The translations under genes and the position numbers were made by a program. From the IMG/VR virus record IMGVR_UViG_3300044946_000132, positions 1 to 31,941 of that record: a stretch of DNA of 31,941 bases; one strand, written 5' to 3'. The stretch is from a virus. Positions within the stretch are counted from its first letter, which is position 1. Every line of letters starts with the position of its first letter. The notes beneath the pieces are model-generated. The model did no database searches and was not told the origin of the DNA. It saw only the letters and a list, made by a program, of their open reading frames with translations. Below are positions 16,434 to 27,595 of this stretch, one piece after another.

Positions 16434-19400
16434 TTGACGGCTTCTGTCACGGTCAATTGGACCGTTGCTGCCTCTGGGGGTAACTCCCCAGACGGTAGCA
16501 CCCTCATCGCCCCCGCTACGGGCTCCCTCACAACCTCGGCTGGCACCTGGGCATGGGGAGGGGCGTATCCTCCTGGCACCAGTGGACCGGGCCAGTATTA
16601 TATCCTACTGAATGGTTCCTCCGCTGCCAATGGTGCCGCTTCTGAATTGGAAGTAGACAATGGCGGGCAGATGTACGCCCTCAATTCTGCCTCTAATTCC
16701 TGGTACGTGTGGAATGGGAGCGGCTGGGCGGCCGCATCAAACCCTAATTCTGGTGGTTCGACAGGAGGCAACGCGGGCCTCAGCGGAGCTACCACTTTCC
16801 CAACCACAGTCTCGCTTCTGAACCTCACTGCCGGGATGCCAACCCAGACCTTTGGGCAGGTTTTCCATGACGGTGATGTGCCTGTTGGTAGTGTGCCCAC
16901 ACTCACCATCGGCGGCGTAGCACAGCCCTTCTCTGCCGGGATGCAGGCGTATCATCCCAGCGGGTGCCTGCGCTTCTGTACTCTGGTGGTCAACCCCACG
17001 GTCAACGGCAACGCTACCCTGACAATTGGTAGTGCTGCTGGCTCGTGGCCGGCTGCCTCGGGTCGCACTGCGGCTGACGTGTACGCGCAGAACCTCATGA
17101 TTGAGGCTCCCCCACTCACTGGTATCACTGGTGGCATCGGGCAGACGCAGCCCACCACGGTTTTTGCCAGGGTTAATGGAGACGCAAACACCTTTAATGT
17201 CAGCAAGTGGTTCGACGGCCAGGCCGGTGCGGGCTTCAAGTTCTCCTGCAATATGGTGGATACCTCAGGTACGGCTCATCCCCAATTGAAGGCAGACTTA
17301 TATGTGCAAGCTCTGGGGGCTGGTGCTTCTCCGCTTGGCTTCCGCTGGTCAGGGTGCCTACGTGCACCGGACTTCACTGCCACCGGGGCACAGTACAACT
17401 TCTTCTTTGCACCACCCAATCCGAGCAACCCCACGGCTGGCCTGAACTGGTCCGCCAATGGAGTAGCACGCGCCCCAACATGGCCCTTTGCCCCTGCCAC
17501 TGACGTTACATCATCGGTTGCTTTCGTCGGCGTAGGTTCTGTAACCAACAACGTGCTGACGATCACCACTACAGAGAGCGGGTCGCTAGCCCAAGGCCAG
17601 CCAGTTACTGCTACCGGCATTGGTGCTCTTAACGAAGGATGCTACATTGCCGCTATTCTGTCGAGCAACACTTACCAACTCGGCAATCTACCCGACGGCA
17701 CCAATGTCCCAGCCGGCACGACGTTCTACACCCCTGGTGTGCTAACCACCACTCAGGGAGAAGCGTGGAGCACAGGGTCACAGAACCTTGTCCCGGTTCA
17801 ACTCTCCGGTAGCGCTCTGCCCAACCCCCTAGCTTCGGGTCAAGTCTATTGGGGACAAATCAATGGAAACAGCCTCTCGCTGAATACTAATCCTGGAGGC
17901 GGTGGATCGTCACAGGTAACAACTGCTGGTGTCTTCACTGCTACCCCGGTCCCCGGCTTCGGATACTTTAATCGGCTCAGCCTAGCCGGCCCCGACGCCA
18001 AGTATATGTACTTCCAAGGCGGTGGTACACAGGCATCGGAGACAGGTTCCAGAGCGCAGCAGAACCAACTCTATCTCCAGAGCAGTGGGATGATCCCGCC
18101 GTATGATCCTGCCCTGACTGGCACGAGCATGGGTGGCTCTCTCCCTGACACTACCTACCCCTTCCCCTGGAACCCCTACAACCAGGGCACTGTCCCCAGC
18201 AACATCAACCAAGGGGGTGACGGCGCGTTCATCGGGGCATTGATGAACCAACAGGTCATCGACTTTGAGAACCAGTCGGCGTTGAGCGAGCAGCAAATCC
18301 GTATCCTCGGATGGGCGGGTGGCTTAATGCCTTACGATCTCAAAGACCATACCCTTGGCACCGTGCTCAATATGACCGGCAATACCTACGCTGGTCTGCC
18401 CGCTTCCAATCTTACTATCTCTTGGGATGGGGCAAACGCCAATGGGTTCACTATACCGGGACCGAGTGGAGCCAACGTCTCCGGGCCTATGGGGATGAAT
18501 GCTGCTGACAGTTCCCACATGCCCTTCTTCTGCTTCTGGCCGTATTTGAGGACCGGGGAACTCCAGTTCTTCGACTACCTCGTGGACACGGCTCTGGGGG
18601 GTGCGCTTATCGCCCAGCCAAATCGTAATCCACGAGTGGCCAATGGCGACAGCCCTTATGACCTAGATGGTGTTGCCCTATATGGCAGTGGGCAGTACCG
18701 TGGTCTAGGCTGGTCTAACCGAAACCTCCAGTGTGCGGCGCTGCTTGCCCCCTACAATCCGACCACGCCGACAGCGCTTGACTTCGATGGCACCCAGCGG
18801 AGCAAGATGCTGAATGACGTAGCGGACTATGCGTCTAATATCCTCATCGACACATGGAACTACGGCAAGACCAACCCTGCTATCGGGTCGGTGCCCGCGT
18901 CCTTCGTCACACCGTACATGCAGTCGGCATCTATGTGGATGCAGTATAGCTATGATCTCCTCGATGGTGGACCCGGTTACAATATCGGACCCTATTGGGA
19001 ACAGTGCTATGTTGGGCTCGGCGAATGCTATGCTGCGGCTCGTGGTAATACCAAGGCTGTTGAGTTCCTTAGTTTGCTGGGGGCTCGTGCGGCCTACGTT
19101 GGTCAAACCTATGGCTTCTTTCCGCTCTACCACTATAATCAAGCCACCTGTCTTGACCAGCCTGCGGCCCCATACAACATCGGTGTGACCCCAATATCAG
19201 CGGACTATGAGTACACCATCAGCCAGATAAGCGCGGTTAATGGGAACCCCGCTGATCTTGGGTGGACTACGGGGGCAGGGCCAGCTTGCTTCTATCTCGA
19301 CACGCAACCCAACAATGGGTATGTGCCACAGAACGGGGATATTATTACGCCGTATGATGGCAATGGTGTGTTCCGACCCTCGGAGATAGCAGACGCTCAG

Positions 19401-19757
19401 TTCTACCAAATCATTGACTTCACGCTGACGCCAGCCGGCCCCAACTATGCTACCTTCGGGTTGGCACCCTACGGCTCGACTACTGCTATCCCCATCTCAT
19501 CGGGGACTGGTTCAGGGATGGTATTCAACTACATGCCATCGAACCCAGGACCACAATTTACGTATCCCTACGCTGGTAACTTTGCATACCAGGTTGGTGA
19601 ATGCGCAGTGTGGGCGACCAAGATGGGCGCGGCGAATTGGGCAACCTGTATCGCCGACGAGGCAACACGCAACCAGGGCCAAGGGTTCTCATTTGGTGGG
19701 ACTGGTGATCCCTACAATACCGAGGACTATCGGTACATCGTCCTCATCCCGAACTAA
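16434..19757 (+). CDS. Large tail spike/glycan-degrading-type protein (about 1107 aa)
   Basis: A very large extracellular-type protein: few Lys, rich in Gly/Ser/Asn/Tyr/Trp. No ribosome-binding site is visible. Start TTG 16434 lies one base after the preceding stop, and the open frame begins at 16380. Residues about 80-115 hold a short Trp-bearing module. Residues 145-240 show TFGQVFHDGDVP ... TLTIGG ... YHPSGCLRF, the beta-sandwich pattern found ahead of catalytic domains in some bacterial and phage polysaccharide lyases. Residues about 690-900 form alternating amphipathic helices (RGLGWSNRNLQCAALL, DVADYASNILIDTW, YWEQCYVGLGECYAAA) suggestive of an alpha/alpha toroid. I infer a receptor-binding spike with glycan-cleaving activity; the enzyme class is not determined. 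It is the last gene before the terminator. Confidence 0.7.
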   Translation: MTASVTVNWTVAASGGNSPDGSTLIAPATGSLTTSAGTWAWGGAYPPGTSGPGQYYILLNGSSAANGAASELEVDNGGQMYALNSASNSWYVWNGSGWAAASNPNSGGSTGGNAGLSGATTFPTTVSLLNLTAGMPTQTFGQVFHDGDVPVGSVPTLTIGGVAQPFSAGMQAYHPSGCLRFCTLVVNPTVNGNATLTIGSAAGSWPAASGRTAADVYAQNLMIEAPPLTGITGGIGQTQPTTVFARVNGDANTFNVSKWFDGQAGAGFKFSCNMVDTSGTAHPQLKADLYVQALGAGASPLGFRWSGCLRAPDFTATGAQYNFFFAPPNPSNPTAGLNWSANGVARAPTWPFAPATDVTSSVAFVGVGSVTNNVLTITTTESGSLAQGQPVTATGIGALNEGCYIAAILSSNTYQLGNLPDGTNVPAGTTFYTPGVLTTTQGEAWSTGSQNLVPVQLSGSALPNPLASGQVYWGQINGNSLSLNTNPGGGGSSQVTTAGVFTATPVPGFGYFNRLSLAGPDAKYMYFQGGGTQASETGSRAQQNQLYLQSSGMIPPYDPALTGTSMGGSLPDTTYPFPWNPYNQGTVPSNINQGGDGAFIGALMNQQVIDFENQSALSEQQIRILGWAGGLMPYDLKDHTLGTVLNMTGNTYAGLPASNLTISWDGANANGFTIPGPSGANVSGPMGMNAADSSHMPFFCFWPYLRTGELQFFDYLVDTALGGALIAQPNRNPRVANGDSPYDLDGVALYGSGQYRGLGWSNRNLQCAALLAPYNPTTPTALDFDGTQRSKMLNDVADYASNILIDTWNYGKTNPAIGSVPASFVTPYMQSASMWMQYSYDLLDGGPGYNIGPYWEQCYVGLGECYAAARGNTKAVEFLSLLGARAAYVGQTYGFFPLYHYNQATCLDQPAAPYNIGVTPISADYEYTISQISAVNGNPADLGWTTGAGPACFYLDTQPNNGYVPQNGDIITPYDGNGVFRPSEIADAQFYQIIDFTLTPAGPNYATFGLAPYGSTTAIPISSGTGSGMVFNYMPSNPGPQFTYPYAGNFAYQVGECAVWATKMGAANWATCIADEATRNQGQGFSFGGTGDPYNTEDYRYIVLIPN

Positions 19758-19764
19758 AGGAAAA

Positions 19765-19793
19765 GCCCCTGGAAAAATCCAGGGGCCTCTTTC
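19765..19793. terminator. Bidirectional intrinsic terminator between converging operons
   Basis: Perfect 9-bp stem GCCCCTGGA (19765-19773) / TCCAGGGGC (19778-19786) with a 4-nt A loop. On the plus strand it is followed by a pyrimidine/T-rich tract (CTCTTTCTT); on the minus strand it is followed by TTTTCCTTT. It sits in the 36 bp between the spike stop and the stop of the leftward DUF5664-like gene, so it can end both transcription units. Confidence 0.9.
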
Positions 19794-20219
19794 TTACTCT
19801 ACTGTGTTCTCTCGGATCAGCCTGCCACCTATACCGCTGGGTGGCCGGTTGTCGATTAGTTTACCTACCTGAGCGGCATCAATCAGAATAGCTAGGCAGG
19901 CCCTGGCGTGCCCAAGATGGTGAGCCCCGCTATCAGGATCGTAGTTCTCACCCTCCTGATACGCATAGAGATGCCGAAGGGCAGCGCCGATGTAGGTCTG
20001 TGCCTCGACCGCTGTTTCTCTCCAATTGAAGGGGTCATACTTATTTGCCCCTTCCTTCAATGCCATCGCCTCTTCGATAATCGCGCTGCTGGGGATTAGG
20101 TGCAGCGGCGGCTTCTTATCCCCATAGATTTGTTTCGGATTTGGTGGCAACCTTACCCAACCACATTCACACCAAACCACATCTGAGTGGTCCAATGGGC
20201 ATTCGCTGAAACGGGGCAT
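19794..20219 (-). CDS. dATP/dGTP diphosphohydrolase-like (DUF5664) protein
   Basis: A 141-residue protein of the phage family once called DUF5664, now described as dATP/dGTP diphosphohydrolase N-terminal-type (MazG/MazZ-related). Visible motifs: GDKKPPLHLIP (33-43), EGANKYDPFNWR (56-67) and RHLYAYQEGENYDPDSG followed by HHLGHA (82-105). Acidic and His residues there fit a metal-dependent dNTP pyrophosphohydrolase. The N-terminus adds a small Cys cluster (Cys7, Cys17, Cys19). Its ATG overlaps the TGA of the deoxyribosyltransferase gene (TGATG), so the two nucleotide enzymes are coupled. It probably adjusts deoxypurine pools during phage replication; this is inferred from the family. Confidence 0.8.
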   Translation of the reverse strand: MPRFSECPLDHSDVVWCECGWVRLPPNPKQIYGDKKPPLHLIPSSAIIEEAMALKEGANKYDPFNWRETAVEAQTYIGAALRHLYAYQEGENYDPDSGAHHLGHARACLAILIDAAQVGKLIDNRPPSGIGGRLIRENTVE

Positions 20220-22857: not shown

Positions 22858-22889
22858 ATCTCCATCAGACGATGGTGATGACAACTCAT
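22798..22889 (-). other. Out-of-frame N-terminal segment of the PDDEXK nuclease
   Basis: From ATG 22889 this frame reads MSCHHHRLMEICSICHP then SPYERWLEREEAK, a plausible His/Cys-rich metal-binding start followed by a charged helix. It overlaps the polymerase TGA by 4 nt and has GAGG 9 nt upstream, all expected of a genuine start in this operon. The frame then continues only as a shadow of the nuclease (stop at 22494). A shift at 22794-22797 would connect it to the nuclease core. Confidence 0.5.
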
Positions 22890-24907
22890 TTTTTGTACCT
22901 CGTGGACTGCCAGGTTTCGACGTTGATCGGGACTTTGATTTGCTCGGCCCACTCGACTGGTGCGCACATGATTTCTTTGAGCCTGTCTTCTGTGTACTCT
23001 CCATTATCAGGAACCTCGCACATGATTTCGTCGTGCACTGTAAGGACAATAGGCCAGCCCGCAGCTTCCAACCGCTCCATCGCCCTGCATAGTAGCTGCC
23101 TTGCAAGGGCCTGAACGACGTTCTCGGTTAGAATACCACCATAAGCATCCACCCATATCCATGCGCCCTGCTTTTTCGAGCGGTACTTCCATGCTGGCCT
23201 TATGTCTTCCTTCTCTGGTGTGCTCCACGGCATCCGCTTCATACATGGGCGAGGATCAAAATAATAGATGCACTTTCCATCAAGAAGACGGCACACCATA
23301 AAATCCTTACCCCCAACGGGCTTGATTTTGTACCCAATACCATGAGACCAGAAAGCCCGACCAGGATTATGTACAGCAGCAAGAGCAGCATCTTCCAGAC
23401 CTTTCCATAACCGGGGGACGAGGGGGGCGAAGGCTTTACGATAGGTGTCGATGCCGGCCTTGGCAAACTCATCACTCTCATTAGGACAGTAGCGCTTCTG
23501 ATATGTCTGCCACCCCATCTGAAAGCCGCAGCCGAGGAAGGTGTTCTTCCCGATCGTGTACTCTATAGGGTCTTTGTACTTGTCGATAGGCCGGCCATAG
23601 ATCAAGCCCGCCACATCACAGTAGGGGCTCAACCCCTTCGCCATCAACTCTGTCTTGTCGTGCTGCCCAGCTAAAGCCAGGACTATCCGTGCCTCAATAC
23701 CAGCGTAATCTCCAGCGATAAAAGTGCAACCATCCCCAGCCAGAAGAGCGTGGCGGAGTGACGCGACCACCAGTTCAAGGGGATCACAGGGGCGGCCGGC
23801 TCTAGTGAAGCCATGTAGGATTGCGGCGCGGTCCCCTGCAAGCACGGCACTAATCTTTTCTTCGACGGTTCCACCTTCAACATCTGATCCTCGCGGGAAA
23901 TTCTGGGGCTGGAGGATACGACCGGCCCATCGACCCGTAGCTGCCGCATGGTATTGGAGTAAGCCTCTTGCGCGTCCATCGAAGCCGACACATGCTTCCA
24001 TACGATCAAGCTTTTTGAGGGAGGAAGAGCCGACAAGCGCTCTAATGTCAAGTGCTCTTCTCGCGTCTTCGGGTAAAGTACCCAACTCTGAGAGTTCATC
24101 AGCCGGATCAGCTTCATCATCTTCTCCTAAAATCGCGGCGACGGTTTCTTTCTTTAGATTGGGGAGTTCGACGCCTTTATCCCCAAGCCACTGTAGAAAC
24201 TTAGCGCCCTGCGTGGGGTTTAGCCCTGTGATTTCCCTGAACTCTTGCACGAGTGGCGATGTACCATCTTTGACGAGGCGTTTTGCTGCCCGCACGAAGG
24301 GCAAGTCGATCTTGATGCCGCGCTGGTTAATAGCCTGGTCAATCTCCCAGACTTTCCTTTCGCAATCCGGTAGCTCACCCAGAGCATCATGCAAGTGAAC
24401 AGTGCCAACCACATCAATTCGATTGTAGTCATAAACCTTCTCCATTATCTCGGGTGTCTTGGCCGGCAGCATCCCCGTTTTCTTGCTGATCTTCGACAGG
24501 TCTAATGTAACCTTCCTCCCCTCCAAATCTTTTACAACCGGGAGACCAAGGACAATTAGAGCATGATCCAAGTCCAGTGGCAGAGCATGGAGCGCACATG
24601 CCGCTTGCGTATCCGACCAACGTGAAATAGGGATGGGAGCGAAACCAAAAACTGGAACCATTATCCATCGCCATATCGCCTGTTCAAATGATGCGTGGGA
24701 AACGAATTTAACTGAGGGGTCTGCTGCTAAGCGTCGGAGCAAATCGTCCGAAGCGGCGGTCGCGGGTGTCCACAAATTGTACGTATTATTTACGTGATAC
24801 ACTAGGGACAAGACTTCCGTGTTCGGGTCTTGCGCGTACCGATCAGCGCCGCAGAGCTTTAGGTCACATCCCAAAGAACAGGTTTCAAAGTCAAGTACAA
24901 CTTTCAT
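22886..24907 (-). CDS. Family A DNA polymerase with 3'-5' exonuclease domain
   Basis: Replicative polymerase of 673 residues. Exonuclease motifs: DFET (5-9), an exo II-like SHASFE (70-75) and YNRID (161-165). Polymerase motifs: TGRWAGRILQPQNFPRG (324-340), motif A GDYAGIEAR (399-407, Asp400), the O-helix region GKNTFLGCGF (453-462, Lys454) and motif C VHDE (624-627). It lacks a 5'-3' nuclease domain, as in T7-like replicases. ATG 24907 is chosen: GGGAG is 7 nt upstream and the protein then starts at the first exonuclease strand; in-frame ATGs at 24973 and 24931 would add a non-conserved extension. The ribosome-binding site lies inside a 19-bp inverted repeat, so expression is likely translationally controlled. 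Confidence 0.93.
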   Translation of the reverse strand: MKVVLDFETCSLGCDLKLCGADRYAQDPNTEVLSLVYHVNNTYNLWTPATAASDDLLRRLAADPSVKFVSHASFEQAIWRWIMVPVFGFAPIPISRWSDTQAACALHALPLDLDHALIVLGLPVVKDLEGRKVTLDLSKISKKTGMLPAKTPEIMEKVYDYNRIDVVGTVHLHDALGELPDCERKVWEIDQAINQRGIKIDLPFVRAAKRLVKDGTSPLVQEFREITGLNPTQGAKFLQWLGDKGVELPNLKKETVAAILGEDDEADPADELSELGTLPEDARRALDIRALVGSSSLKKLDRMEACVGFDGRARGLLQYHAAATGRWAGRILQPQNFPRGSDVEGGTVEEKISAVLAGDRAAILHGFTRAGRPCDPLELVVASLRHALLAGDGCTFIAGDYAGIEARIVLALAGQHDKTELMAKGLSPYCDVAGLIYGRPIDKYKDPIEYTIGKNTFLGCGFQMGWQTYQKRYCPNESDEFAKAGIDTYRKAFAPLVPRLWKGLEDAALAAVHNPGRAFWSHGIGYKIKPVGGKDFMVCRLLDGKCIYYFDPRPCMKRMPWSTPEKEDIRPAWKYRSKKQGAWIWVDAYGGILTENVVQALARQLLCRAMERLEAAGWPIVLTVHDEIMCEVPDNGEYTEDRLKEIMCAPVEWAEQIKVPINVETWQSTRYKK

Positions 24908-24914
24908 ATTGTTC

Positions 24915-25017
24915 TCCCTTATGCCTACCATCCGGGACGGCTTGCACCCTATGCGGCCAAATGGTTGGTCCACTCGGTCTGTTCATGCCCTCTATTTGGG
25001 ATGGTAGGCATAAGGGA
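24915..25017 (-). repeat. 19-bp perfect inverted repeat covering the polymerase ribosome-binding site
   Basis: Left arm TCCCTTATGCCTACCATCC (24915-24933) and right arm GGATGGTAGGCATAAGGGA (24999-25017) pair perfectly around a 65-nt loop. In the leftward mRNA the distal arm carries AAGGGA, the Shine-Dalgarno of DNA polymerase, so a hairpin would hide it. It may alternatively be an RNase III processing site. There is no target-site duplication visible that would suggest an insertion element. Confidence 0.8.
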
Positions 25018-25040
25018 AAAAGTGGGGGCTTTGCACCCCC
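25018..25040 (-). terminator. Intrinsic terminator (leaky) after the SSB gene
   Basis: On the minus strand, GGGGG (25040-25036), a 7-nt loop and CCCCC (25028-25024) are followed by ACTTTTTCCC, a 5-T tract. It stands between the SSB stop and the polymerase start. No promoter is evident downstream, so polymerase transcription likely depends on read-through, placing it below SSB in expression. Confidence 0.65.
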
Positions 25041-25053
25041 TCGGCCGTCCATG

Positions 25054-25114
25054 CGCGGCTCTGTACTCCCCCCGTTTACCAGGGGGCAACGGACATCCGT
25101 TTACCGGAGCCGCG
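25054..25114. other. Nested stem structure with repeated CCGTTTACC
   Basis: An outer 8-bp stem CGCGGCTC (25054-25061) / GAGCCGCG (25107-25114) encloses two inner stems: CCCCC/GGGGG (25069-25073 with 25082-25086) and AACGGA/TCCGTT (25088-25093 with 25096-25101). CCGTTTACC occurs twice in direct orientation, 25 bp apart (25072-25080, 25097-25105). It lies in the non-coding 210-nt stretch 24908-25117, the longest gap in the replication unit. Candidate replication origin, protein-binding site or structured RNA. It is not a tRNA: no T-arm or anticodon arm can be drawn. Confidence 0.5.
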
Positions 25115-25117
25115 AGT

Positions 25118-25753
25118 TTAGAAGTCCGACTGAGGCACCTGGCCCGGACGGCTGCCGGGGAGATGAGCCTTATACACCAGGTCGGAGAAGGCAGTGGCAT
25201 CGTTCTGCCCACCGATACGATCACCCCGGCCCTGACTAAAGACCGAATTGAAGTACCCGGTGACACCACCACCAAACTCGGAGTAGGCTTTCAGGCTAAC
25301 CTCGGCGCGTACCAGAACGCCAGTGTAGAACTTGTCCTTCGCCGCAGCCACCAGGTCGGGGGTCGTGAGATTGGTGGCCTTGCCGTTCACCCAGCAACCC
25401 AGCATAGGCGGGCGAGCAGCCGTAGCATGAGCAGAGAACTGCACCTTGCCGGCGAGTGTCTTGCGCATCTTCTCGACGGTTGCAGCGTCCTTGCCCTTTT
25501 CAACTGCCTCTTTAATCAAAGTCCCGGCGCTTTTGAAAGGGATCTTTACCCCCTTGATATCCCCGCCGTGGGCATCGACCGTAAGAGCAATCAATGCTTC
25601 AAGGTCAGCGCTGTTTTCGGACAACAAGAGCTTGAGGTTGTAGCGGGGGTCGCCAGGCTTACCCTTCTCAGGGGTGTATCGGCTCGTCTCGAAGAGGTTG
25701 GAGAAATAGAGGATCGCATCCTCGGTCAGACGGTAGTTGAAATACTCTGCCAT
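25118..25753 (-). CDS. Single-stranded DNA-binding protein, DUF2815/T7 gp2.5-like
   Basis: 211 residues, matching the phage DUF2815 group that serves as replicative SSB. Features: a helical Ala/Lys-rich region (residues 76-100), beta stretches GKVQFSAHA and FYTGVLVRAEVSLKAYS (142-157), the family-typical GRGDRIGGQNDATAF (175-189), and an acidic-aromatic C-terminus (QVPQSDF) like the C-terminal tips by which SSBs bind partners. The ATG at 25753 has AAGGAAG close upstream, and three GTGAAA repeats cover this leader. Lying between the Cas4-like nuclease and DNA polymerase genes, it belongs to the replication/recombination module. Confidence 0.8.
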   Translation of the reverse strand: MAEYFNYRLTEDAILYFSNLFETSRYTPEKGKPGDPRYNLKLLLSENSADLEALIALTVDAHGGDIKGVKIPFKSAGTLIKEAVEKGKDAATVEKMRKTLAGKVQFSAHATAARPPMLGCWVNGKATNLTTPDLVAAAKDKFYTGVLVRAEVSLKAYSEFGGGVTGYFNSVFSQGRGDRIGGQNDATAFSDLVYKAHLPGSRPGQVPQSDF

Positions 25754-25833: not shown

Positions 25834-26961
25834 TCACTCATCTTCGCATACAAGGTTCGTAAAATCAATTGCGGTGCGGACAATAGCTTGGCGCTTGTCT
25901 GCTATCCCAACAACCGTAACACCAGGGTCCGGTGGTATGTGGGCAAACTCGGCGGTTAGCTGCTTCCCGTTCTCCAGGCGATCCTCGGCTTGCTTCGGGC
26001 TCATCGGCACGCTCATCCGAGGGGCTTGGTACCCCGGTATCCATTGTCGATCGGCTTTCTTCCTTACTATCTTCCACGGCCCCTCCTGTCCTGACAAGGC
26101 CCGCCTGCTCATCTCTGTGTAGACCGCCTTCAAGTAGATTTCGACGGCCTTACCAAGCTCGAACTCATACCCAAGCGCTTCATTAGATAACGTCTCCAGC
26201 GCCACGGTGGGAGCCGTCGCGGCAGCTTTTGATAGCGCACCAAGGACCGGGCATACAAGCTTGACCGGACAGAAGCGGCACCAGGAGCCTGGGATAACGT
26301 CTCCCTTGCCTTCCTGGGCCTTCCTGATGCCGGGTAAAAGCACATTGGTAGCCCAATATGATAATTTGCCGCCGGTAATACTCCATTCACGGATTATACC
26401 ATCCTTATGAAAGCCACGAGGTTGAACGATGACGAGATTGAAGATGTCTATTCCGGGATATCGGCACTGCAATCCGACGGCGTAATATTTGAGTTGCCCG
26501 TTGTCAATAACGTCAACGGCAATACCAACTCCGTGCTTGTAGTCGATGACTTCCGCGTAAATCCATATACCAGGTTCATCACCAGCGAGGAAATAAACGT
26601 CGATTGTTCCGTAAAACGCCGGTTCGTCCGGGTGCGTGACATGTTGCTCTACCTCCATTTCCACATAGGAGAAACGAGCGCGTAGCTGCTTCAACCTTTT
26701 CCACACGAAATCTATGTACTTCTGTACTCCCTCCACATGATCGGCTCGGAAGCGGCGGATACCCGGAGTAACAAATTCCCAGGCATCCAGGTTGTTGCGC
26801 AGGGCTTCGGAGGCAACCTCATGCGCGAGGGTGCCATCCACGCGATAGTCAGGCTCATCGCTTTCCTGCTCCAACCCGGCCCCCTTGATTAAGGAGACCG
26901 AGCCGGGGCAATTCAGGAAACGCTCTGTGCTGCTACCGCCTGTCTTACTATGGAAGGTCAA
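25834..26961 (-). CDS. Cas4/RecB-like PD-(D/E)XK nuclease (DUF2800-type)
   Basis: A 375-residue exonuclease-type protein. HSKTGGSSTERFLNCPGS (4-21) is the usual opening of this phage family. His47 (TLAHEV), Asp121 (GTIDVYF), the Asp140-x-Lys142 pair in EVIDYKHG and Gln156 in NGQLKYY form the RecB-type catalytic set. Cys18 with Cys228, Cys231 and Cys237 (WCRFCPVKLVC) would hold a Cas4/AddB-like Fe-S cluster. Start: the frame is open to 27051, but TTG 26961 gives exactly the family N-terminus. It overlaps the upstream stop by 14 nt and lacks a good ribosome-binding site, so coupling is likely. It probably resects DNA ends with the neighbouring SSB during recombination-dependent replication. Confidence 0.85.
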   Translation of the reverse strand: MTFHSKTGGSSTERFLNCPGSVSLIKGAGLEQESDEPDYRVDGTLAHEVASEALRNNLDAWEFVTPGIRRFRADHVEGVQKYIDFVWKRLKQLRARFSYVEMEVEQHVTHPDEPAFYGTIDVYFLAGDEPGIWIYAEVIDYKHGVGIAVDVIDNGQLKYYAVGLQCRYPGIDIFNLVIVQPRGFHKDGIIREWSITGGKLSYWATNVLLPGIRKAQEGKGDVIPGSWCRFCPVKLVCPVLGALSKAAATAPTVALETLSNEALGYEFELGKAVEIYLKAVYTEMSRRALSGQEGPWKIVRKKADRQWIPGYQAPRMSVPMSPKQAEDRLENGKQLTAEFAHIPPDPGVTVVGIADKRQAIVRTAIDFTNLVCEDE

Positions 26962-27595
26962 TGTGCAGTGTCTGAGCAAGGAGGTAGCGCAAAAACTCGG
27001 GTCGCCCCTCCATGCTGATGTCGGCGGCTTTCTTACCGCGCTCCCCAACAAACCGGGCGATCAGTTCACGGATTTCATCACCAATAGCGGTGTTGCCTTC
27101 CGCCAAGCCACGCTCCTGCCGAGCCGCACAAGCTGACCGCAGCATCTCATCCGTTGGAGCTAGGCTTTCCCCAGCCGAAGGCATCGAGGAGCTTTCGGTT
27201 GGCTTCGACGCCTCCCCAGATGGCGTAGGGTCCGCTGCACTCTTACGCCCGCGCTTCTTCGGGGCAGGCATACCGCTCTCGCCAGCGCCTACCTGATCGC
27301 TCTCAGGCATAGCAACAGCTTCTGCCTGGTGACGCTGCTCCACCGCGCTAGTGGTTGCTGCCAGGCGTTCCGGGGTCTCTACCACCAAAGGCATAGAGGC
27401 AGGAACCACTAGGCCGGATGGGGTGATGCCGAGGCTGGCAAAAACTTGCTGCTGAGCGAGGAGGCGAGCCTGTTCAGCTAGACCAGCCCCATCATCCTTG
27501 TCAGTGGAAAAGGTGATTTCAGCCTTGGCAACACGGTGCTGGAAATCGCCATCATTGATGCGCTTCTCGAAAGTGATGGTGCCATTAGTGATCAT
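26948..27595 (-). CDS. Beta-domain protein with AT-hook-like linker, unknown function
   Basis: A 215-residue protein. The N-terminus (MITNGTITFEKRINDGDFQHRV... AEITFS, residues 1-30) looks like a small beta domain with a pattern I associate with phage proteins encoded beside Cas4-like nucleases, but I cannot name a family. The middle is Ser/Pro/Ala-rich and disordered, with an AT-hook-like KKRGRK (113-118). The C-terminal 70 residues are helical and charged (EIRELIARFVGERGKKAADI). ATG 27595 with GGGGAG 7 nt upstream is chosen over the open frame to 27676. It overlaps the upstream gene by 11 nt. A DNA-binding accessory of the nuclease/SSB is my inference. Confidence 0.75.
   Translation of the reverse strand: MITNGTITFEKRINDGDFQHRVAKAEITFSTDKDDGAGLAEQARLLAQQQVFASLGITPSGLVVPASMPLVVETPERLAATTSAVEQRHQAEAVAMPESDQVGAGESGMPAPKKRGRKSAADPTPSGEASKPTESSSMPSAGESLAPTDEMLRSACAARQERGLAEGNTAIGDEIRELIARFVGERGKKAADISMEGRPEFLRYLLAQTLHIDLP

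Follow-up and report, generated by a model that had tools for sequence, protein, structure and literature searches.

A covarying hairpin between the ssb and family-A DNA polymerase genes of uncultivated phages, very probably a control element of the polymerase message

What is the role of a long inverted repeat that lies in the gap between two replication genes of a phage, just before the start codon of its DNA polymerase? The question arises from the virus record IMGVR_UViG_3300044946_000132, of which the whole stretch of 31,941 nucleotides was analysed (hereafter the window). The leftward genes of the locus stand in the order exonuclease, ssb, the element under study, polymerase, exonuclease and nucleotide-metabolism genes. 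The order ssb, gap, polymerase is general among relatives, and a comparable order, with a DUF2815 protein followed by DNA polymerase A, is found in Sinorhizobium phage phiM5. The window also encodes a T7-lysozyme-like protein (19794-20219, minus strand; PHROG “endolysin; inhibits RNA polymerase”); a single-subunit RNA polymerase gene was found neither in this record nor in the other phage records, a weak absence given that the search control matched nothing. The features of the locus, in window coordinates, are:

25834-27051, leftward: PD-(D/E)XK/Cas4-like exonuclease
25118-25753, minus strand: ssDNA-binding protein gene, gp2.5/Enc34-like, upstream of the element; synteny kept in relatives
24908-25064, minus strand: whole conserved block of 23-nt leader, terminator, hairpin and Shine-Dalgarno (SD) sequence; 155/157 identical to the related locus L001
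25024-25040, minus strand: intrinsic terminator hairpin, GGGGGTGCAAAGCCCCC, followed by AC and a TTTTT run (25021-25017)
24999-25020, minus strand: 5′ arm of the long helix, UUUUCCCUUAUGCCUACCAUCC, placed by arm sequence and covariation
24934-24998, minus strand: apical domain of 65 nt, identical in L001 and similar to the apical domain of the distant locus L006
24912-24933, minus strand: 3′ arm of the long helix, GGAUGGUAGGCAUAAGGGAGAA, holding the SD AAGGGA at 24920-24915
22886-24907, minus strand: family-A DNA polymerase, 673 aa (phrog_17), start codon 4 nt past the helix

An initial annotation, made from the letters of the window, had described a perfect 19-bp inverted repeat preceded by a terminator, and both are borne out. 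The arms at 24915-24933 and 24999-25017 are exactly complementary, and the helix extends to 22 nt (24912-24933 with 24999-25020), with one G-U pair in the mRNA sense and 65 nt enclosed. The hairpin 24912-25020 is the best and the longest inverted repeat of the 31.9-kb window, with no other of equal quality; its 19 perfect base pairs compare with a maximum of 16 bp and a mean of 7.7 for the longest perfect repeat within 150 nt in 60 first-order Markov sequences simulated with the base statistics of the window. Folding of the transcript, proposed in the same annotation as a check, gave −58 kcal/mol for minus-strand RNA 24905-25021 (z = −8.2), a stability reached in 0/200 shuffles. The GC-rich terminator lies directly upstream (25040-25024), and its TTTTT run leads straight into the 5′ arm of the helix.

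Two close relatives, L001 and L002, are identical to each other across the 12-kb locus and carry a polymerase 91% identical to that of the window (88.5% DNA identity between window and L001). Between the window and L001 only 2/157 positions differ in the non-coding block, versus 11.5% in the polymerase gene (binomial 1e-6): one difference replaces C-G by U-G at a pair within the helix, the other falls in the terminator loop, and the apical domain is invariant (65/65). Little weight is placed on this conservation, given the mosaic nature of the genomes and the fact that 2.6% of 157-nt windows across the replication region reach the same conservation between the two phages; the other three such clusters lie in coding DNA. 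Taken alone, the L001 conservation is weak evidence for function. Mosaic exchange between phages is visible at 18018-19797 of the window, where DNA identity to L001 is 97.5%, against ~85-89% in the replication genes. In addition, L001 holds a second copy of the terminator-like hairpin upstream (L001:4700-4870; GGGGGTGCAAGGCCCCC), without a T run, at a place where the window has other hairpins.

More distant carriers were sought among 80 polymerase loci from IMG/VR, scanned for long stems near the polymerase start. Three further lineages with the same arm sequence were identified in that scan: L006 (arms TTTTTTCTTACGCCTGCCGGG and CCCGGCAGGCGTAAGGGAAAA, 83-nt loop), L059/L060 (arms CCTTTTCTTTCGCCTGCCGC and GCGGCAGGCGAAAGCAAAGG, 65-nt loop) and L043 (arms TTTCCGATTTCGCCTGCCCGGC and GCCGGGCAGGCGAAATCGGAAA, 58-nt loop). 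Their polymerases are only about 45-47% identical, and the element occupies the same ssb-polymerase gap. In all four lineages the helix is uninterrupted or nearly so and 20-22 bp long, within the range of RNase III sites (~20 bp or more), and the apical domain spans 58-83 nt. The 5′ arm is immediately preceded by a terminator-like hairpin in L006 and L059 and by a weak one in L043, and the 3′ arm of L006, L059/L060 and L043 coincides with a ribosome-binding site (RBS) or is followed at once by one. The element immediately precedes the polymerase gene in the window, L001 and L043, where the RNA structure overlaps or adjoins the polymerase RBS in the manner of T4 gene 43; in L006 and L059 a small ORF lies between element and polymerase. 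The apical domain of L006 can be aligned with that of the window (local alignment, equalled by 0/300 shuffles); for the others the alignment is not significant. A covariance model built from five sequences, which score high by construction, places exactly one site in each genome, always upstream of the polymerase genes, and found nothing above chance in 70 other loci. In the polymerase tree the element-bearing lineages do not form one clade and three changes are required, so that loss, transfer, or both have occurred. In two of these lineages (L006:5001-7587 and L059:1143-3426) the family-A polymerase is itself split at about residue 146/150 into exonuclease and polymerase ORFs, and in L006 the halves are separated by a 177-aa ORF with a match to a DNA methyltransferase PHROG.

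Compensatory changes between the arms of related phages, named in the initial annotation as a further check, were found in the helix. The analysis used an alignment of 18 helix pairs (A4) in which the window and L001 count nearly as one row, leaving four lineages. Both sides have changed in 8/18 pairs, nine pairs are invariant and 98.9% of cells are paired. The covariation score is 0.483 versus 0.237 ± 0.048 for shuffled alignments, and none of 500 shuffles equalled the observed paired percentage, covariation score or count of doubly changed pairs; shifting the partner by 1 to 3 columns lowered pairing to 40-58%. G-U pairs occur only in the mRNA sense (two in L006, one in L001 and one near the outer end in window/L001), and no A-C position pairs only on the opposite strand. 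Within the helix an 11-bp core, TTNYGCCTRCC/GGYAGGCRNAA, is kept in sequence apart from paired changes at three positions. This substitution pattern marks the element as a structured RNA under selection; no Rfam family covers it. It is best explained as an RNA structure acting in cis within the leader of the polymerase (polA) message. The hairpin is very probably a genuine control element of that message, as matched compensating mutations have been kept in divergent relatives.

The position of the SD bears on which property of the hairpin is conserved. According to the initial annotation the hairpin buries the polymerase RBS, and in this phage it does: the SD occupies the outer portion of the 3′ arm, 7 nt upstream of the polymerase ATG (24907), with a probability of being unpaired of 0.02 (0.01-0.02 over window and L001). 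Opening would cost about 12.6 kcal/mol for the SD and about 32 for the initiation region from −20 to +13, and removal of the 5′ arm raises the unpaired probability of the SD to about 0.3. The claim finds no support as a general rule. The SD is within the helix in the window and L001, at the helix edge in L059 and just 3′ of the helix in L006 and L043, and burial thus characterises this phage and its close relatives. What is conserved is the 20-22-bp helix at the SD, its core, and its place between terminator and RBS, not SD burial. Longer polymerase isoforms had also been proposed, starting at in-frame ATGs at 24973 and 24931; the latter is present, the codon at 24973 is GTG. A coding reading, whether as a longer isoform or as a leader peptide, was rejected: the distances from core to start are 22, 30, 31 and 27 nt in the four lineages and fall in differing frames, so no shared peptide is encoded.

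Known identities were also searched for. Rfam returned for the window only a mir-4436 match, far below cut-off and on the plus strand, and no match at gathering score in L001, L006, L043, L059, L040 or L066; a riboswitch or ribozyme of an Rfam family was thus rejected. A tRNA-like element, considered because of the 58-65-nt loops and a tRNA-Pro in locus L091, was rejected for want of any tRNA signal in the element-bearing family: ARAGORN and Rfam gave no tRNA in the window, L001, L006, L043 or L059, and at this place one only in the distant L091. A mobile inverted-repeat element was rejected on the grounds of one copy per genome. Arm-pattern scans of IMG/VR, incomplete in that one of them missed L043 although L043 contains the pattern, returned outside the known loci only chance matches with stems of 8-15 bp, or coding coincidences. 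No close kin of L006 or L043 emerged from the searches for them, cultured phages and plasmids gave no DNA-level match beyond chance, and such a helix is absent from six cultured or named phages whose polymerases are related. The mechanism appears to be of a known kind, an RBS-proximal phage leader RNA, and the family new. The element would be a compact case of a phage setting the ratio and timing of SSB and polymerase from one operon, with family-A polymerases and in uncultivated phages, and would add an RNA family missing from Rfam.

As to how such a leader might work, our preferred reading, held tentatively at a probability of roughly 0.4, is a processing and translation-control hairpin that would be cut by host RNase III, releasing the polymerase RBS. 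A helix of 20-22 bp corresponds to about two A-form turns, the classic size of an RNase III substrate. Transcripts that pass the terminator would fold the long helix, and host RNase III would cut this uninterrupted two-turn duplex. The cut would split the ssb message, whose 3′ end would keep the terminator hairpin, from the polymerase message, and by taking off the 5′ arm it would free the polymerase SD. Before cutting, or in the uncut fraction, polymerase translation would stay low, and the predicted outcome is plentiful SSB and, from the same operon, polymerase that arrives late and in small amounts. No RNase III gene turned up in the phage records, so the enzyme would be the host's. We favour this reading, with support from four independent lineages only, because it accounts for the length of the helix, its location and its indifference to the exact SD position, and because there are precedents: in E. 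coli adhE an occluded RBS is opened by RNase III cleavage, and RNase III controls or cuts lambda cIII and T7 early RNAs (PMC5371410). Two observations speak against it. The conserved 11-bp core, and an apical domain unchanged at 65/65 positions in L001 and still discernible in L006, are more than RNase III alone would require; and L006 and L043 have their SD beyond the helix, so that no cleavage is needed there to open it.

Because RNase III alone fails to explain the conserved core and apical domain, an autogenous or replication-coupled operator is retained as a possible, if doubtful, alternative. Here the polymerase, SSB or another phage protein would bind the core and apical domain, stabilise the helix and block the ribosome; once the protein was engaged on DNA, the leader would be free and polymerase would be made, as for T4 gp43 and gp32. 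The sequence conservation of the core inside a covarying helix argues for such a binding site, as does the apical domain conserved between window and L006 and invariant in L001, and in T4 the DNA polymerase and the SSB each use an RNA structure at the RBS to repress translation of their own message (PMC3014915). With its SD buried, however, a bare helix of 22 bp needs no protein to be closed, and in L006 and L043 the SD lies outside the helix.

Other relatives carry unrelated helices in the same gap. In L040 (2913-3009) a helix of 19 bp with one mismatch and a 59-nt loop contains both the SD and the start codon; in L066 an imperfect 26-bp helix with a 60-nt loop, upstream of 2989, ends at the SD AGGAG; and in L091 (2839-2943) a tRNA-Pro(CGG) immediately precedes the polymerase ATG (2947), its acceptor stem lengthened by 16 bp to give a helix of 23 bp. 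Helices of ≥18 bp whose loops are ≥40 nt are, in the loci scanned, almost confined to the ~400 nt upstream of the polymerase; the one exception is a second helix of L091 (2076-2172; 26 bp, 45-nt loop), shortly before another gene start (2196). A more speculative proposal, which we consider unlikely though worth stating, is an undescribed family of phage leader RNAs whose core and apical domain would respond to a replication factor (polymerase, SSB or a host signal), with processing as well as translation of the polymerase operon under their control; the unrelated helices and tRNA of distant relatives would then mark the ssb-polymerase gap as a repeatedly re-invented RNA control point.

Stable 5′ hairpins protect mRNAs, and the terminator and hairpin might do no more than set a low polymerase-to-SSB ratio and shield RNA ends, as a constitutive attenuator or mRNA stabiliser without a switch. 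Terminator-like hairpins occur in 10/30 ssb-polymerase gaps examined (three of them element-bearing), the others without the long helix, and one without the long helix is also present in the phiM5 gap. We rate this account as rather improbable, since the conservation of core and apical sequence exceeds that of a generic hairpin. Inverted sites acting at the DNA level, as operator, replication origin or recombination sites, would agree with two inverted copies of the core 66-89 bp apart in every lineage and with the adjoining replication genes, but a DNA-reading protein would need neither covariation on both sides of pairs outside the core nor G-U pairs confined to the mRNA sense, which makes this explanation very unlikely. 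A functionless repeat, arisen by chance or recent mobility, could draw on the partly mosaic, near-identical stretches that weaken the L001 comparison, yet with a single copy per genome, the same gap in four lineages and compensatory changes it is hardly credible, and the covariation already contradicts it.

Post-transcriptional control of phage DNA polymerase has been well studied mainly in T4-like phages, and the element shares traits with several known systems. With the E. coli adhE and lambda cIII leaders it has in common an RBS held in RNA structure beside the start codon (in the window) and an RNase III-type substrate; it differs in that two related lineages have the SD outside the helix, a terminator adjoins the 5′ arm and cleavage is only predicted. 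The RNase III sites of T7 early RNA are likewise inter-cistron hairpins in a phage operon, and the present one may similarly cut a long message into gene-sized pieces; its helix, however, is uninterrupted, with a 58-83-nt apical domain and a conserved core sequence, and its cleavage is again a prediction. Like the gene 43 operator of T4/RB69, it is an RNA structure at the RBS of a phage DNA polymerase, although the T4 operator is a 16-18-nt hairpin bound by gp43, whereas here the element measures 110 nt, the polymerase is of family A and protein binding is hypothetical. The T4/RB69 gene 32 (SSB) operator also places a regulatory RNA structure near the RBS of a replication-protein message, but there the structure, which includes a pseudoknot, lies on the ssb message itself, whereas here it lies downstream of ssb and before the polymerase gene.
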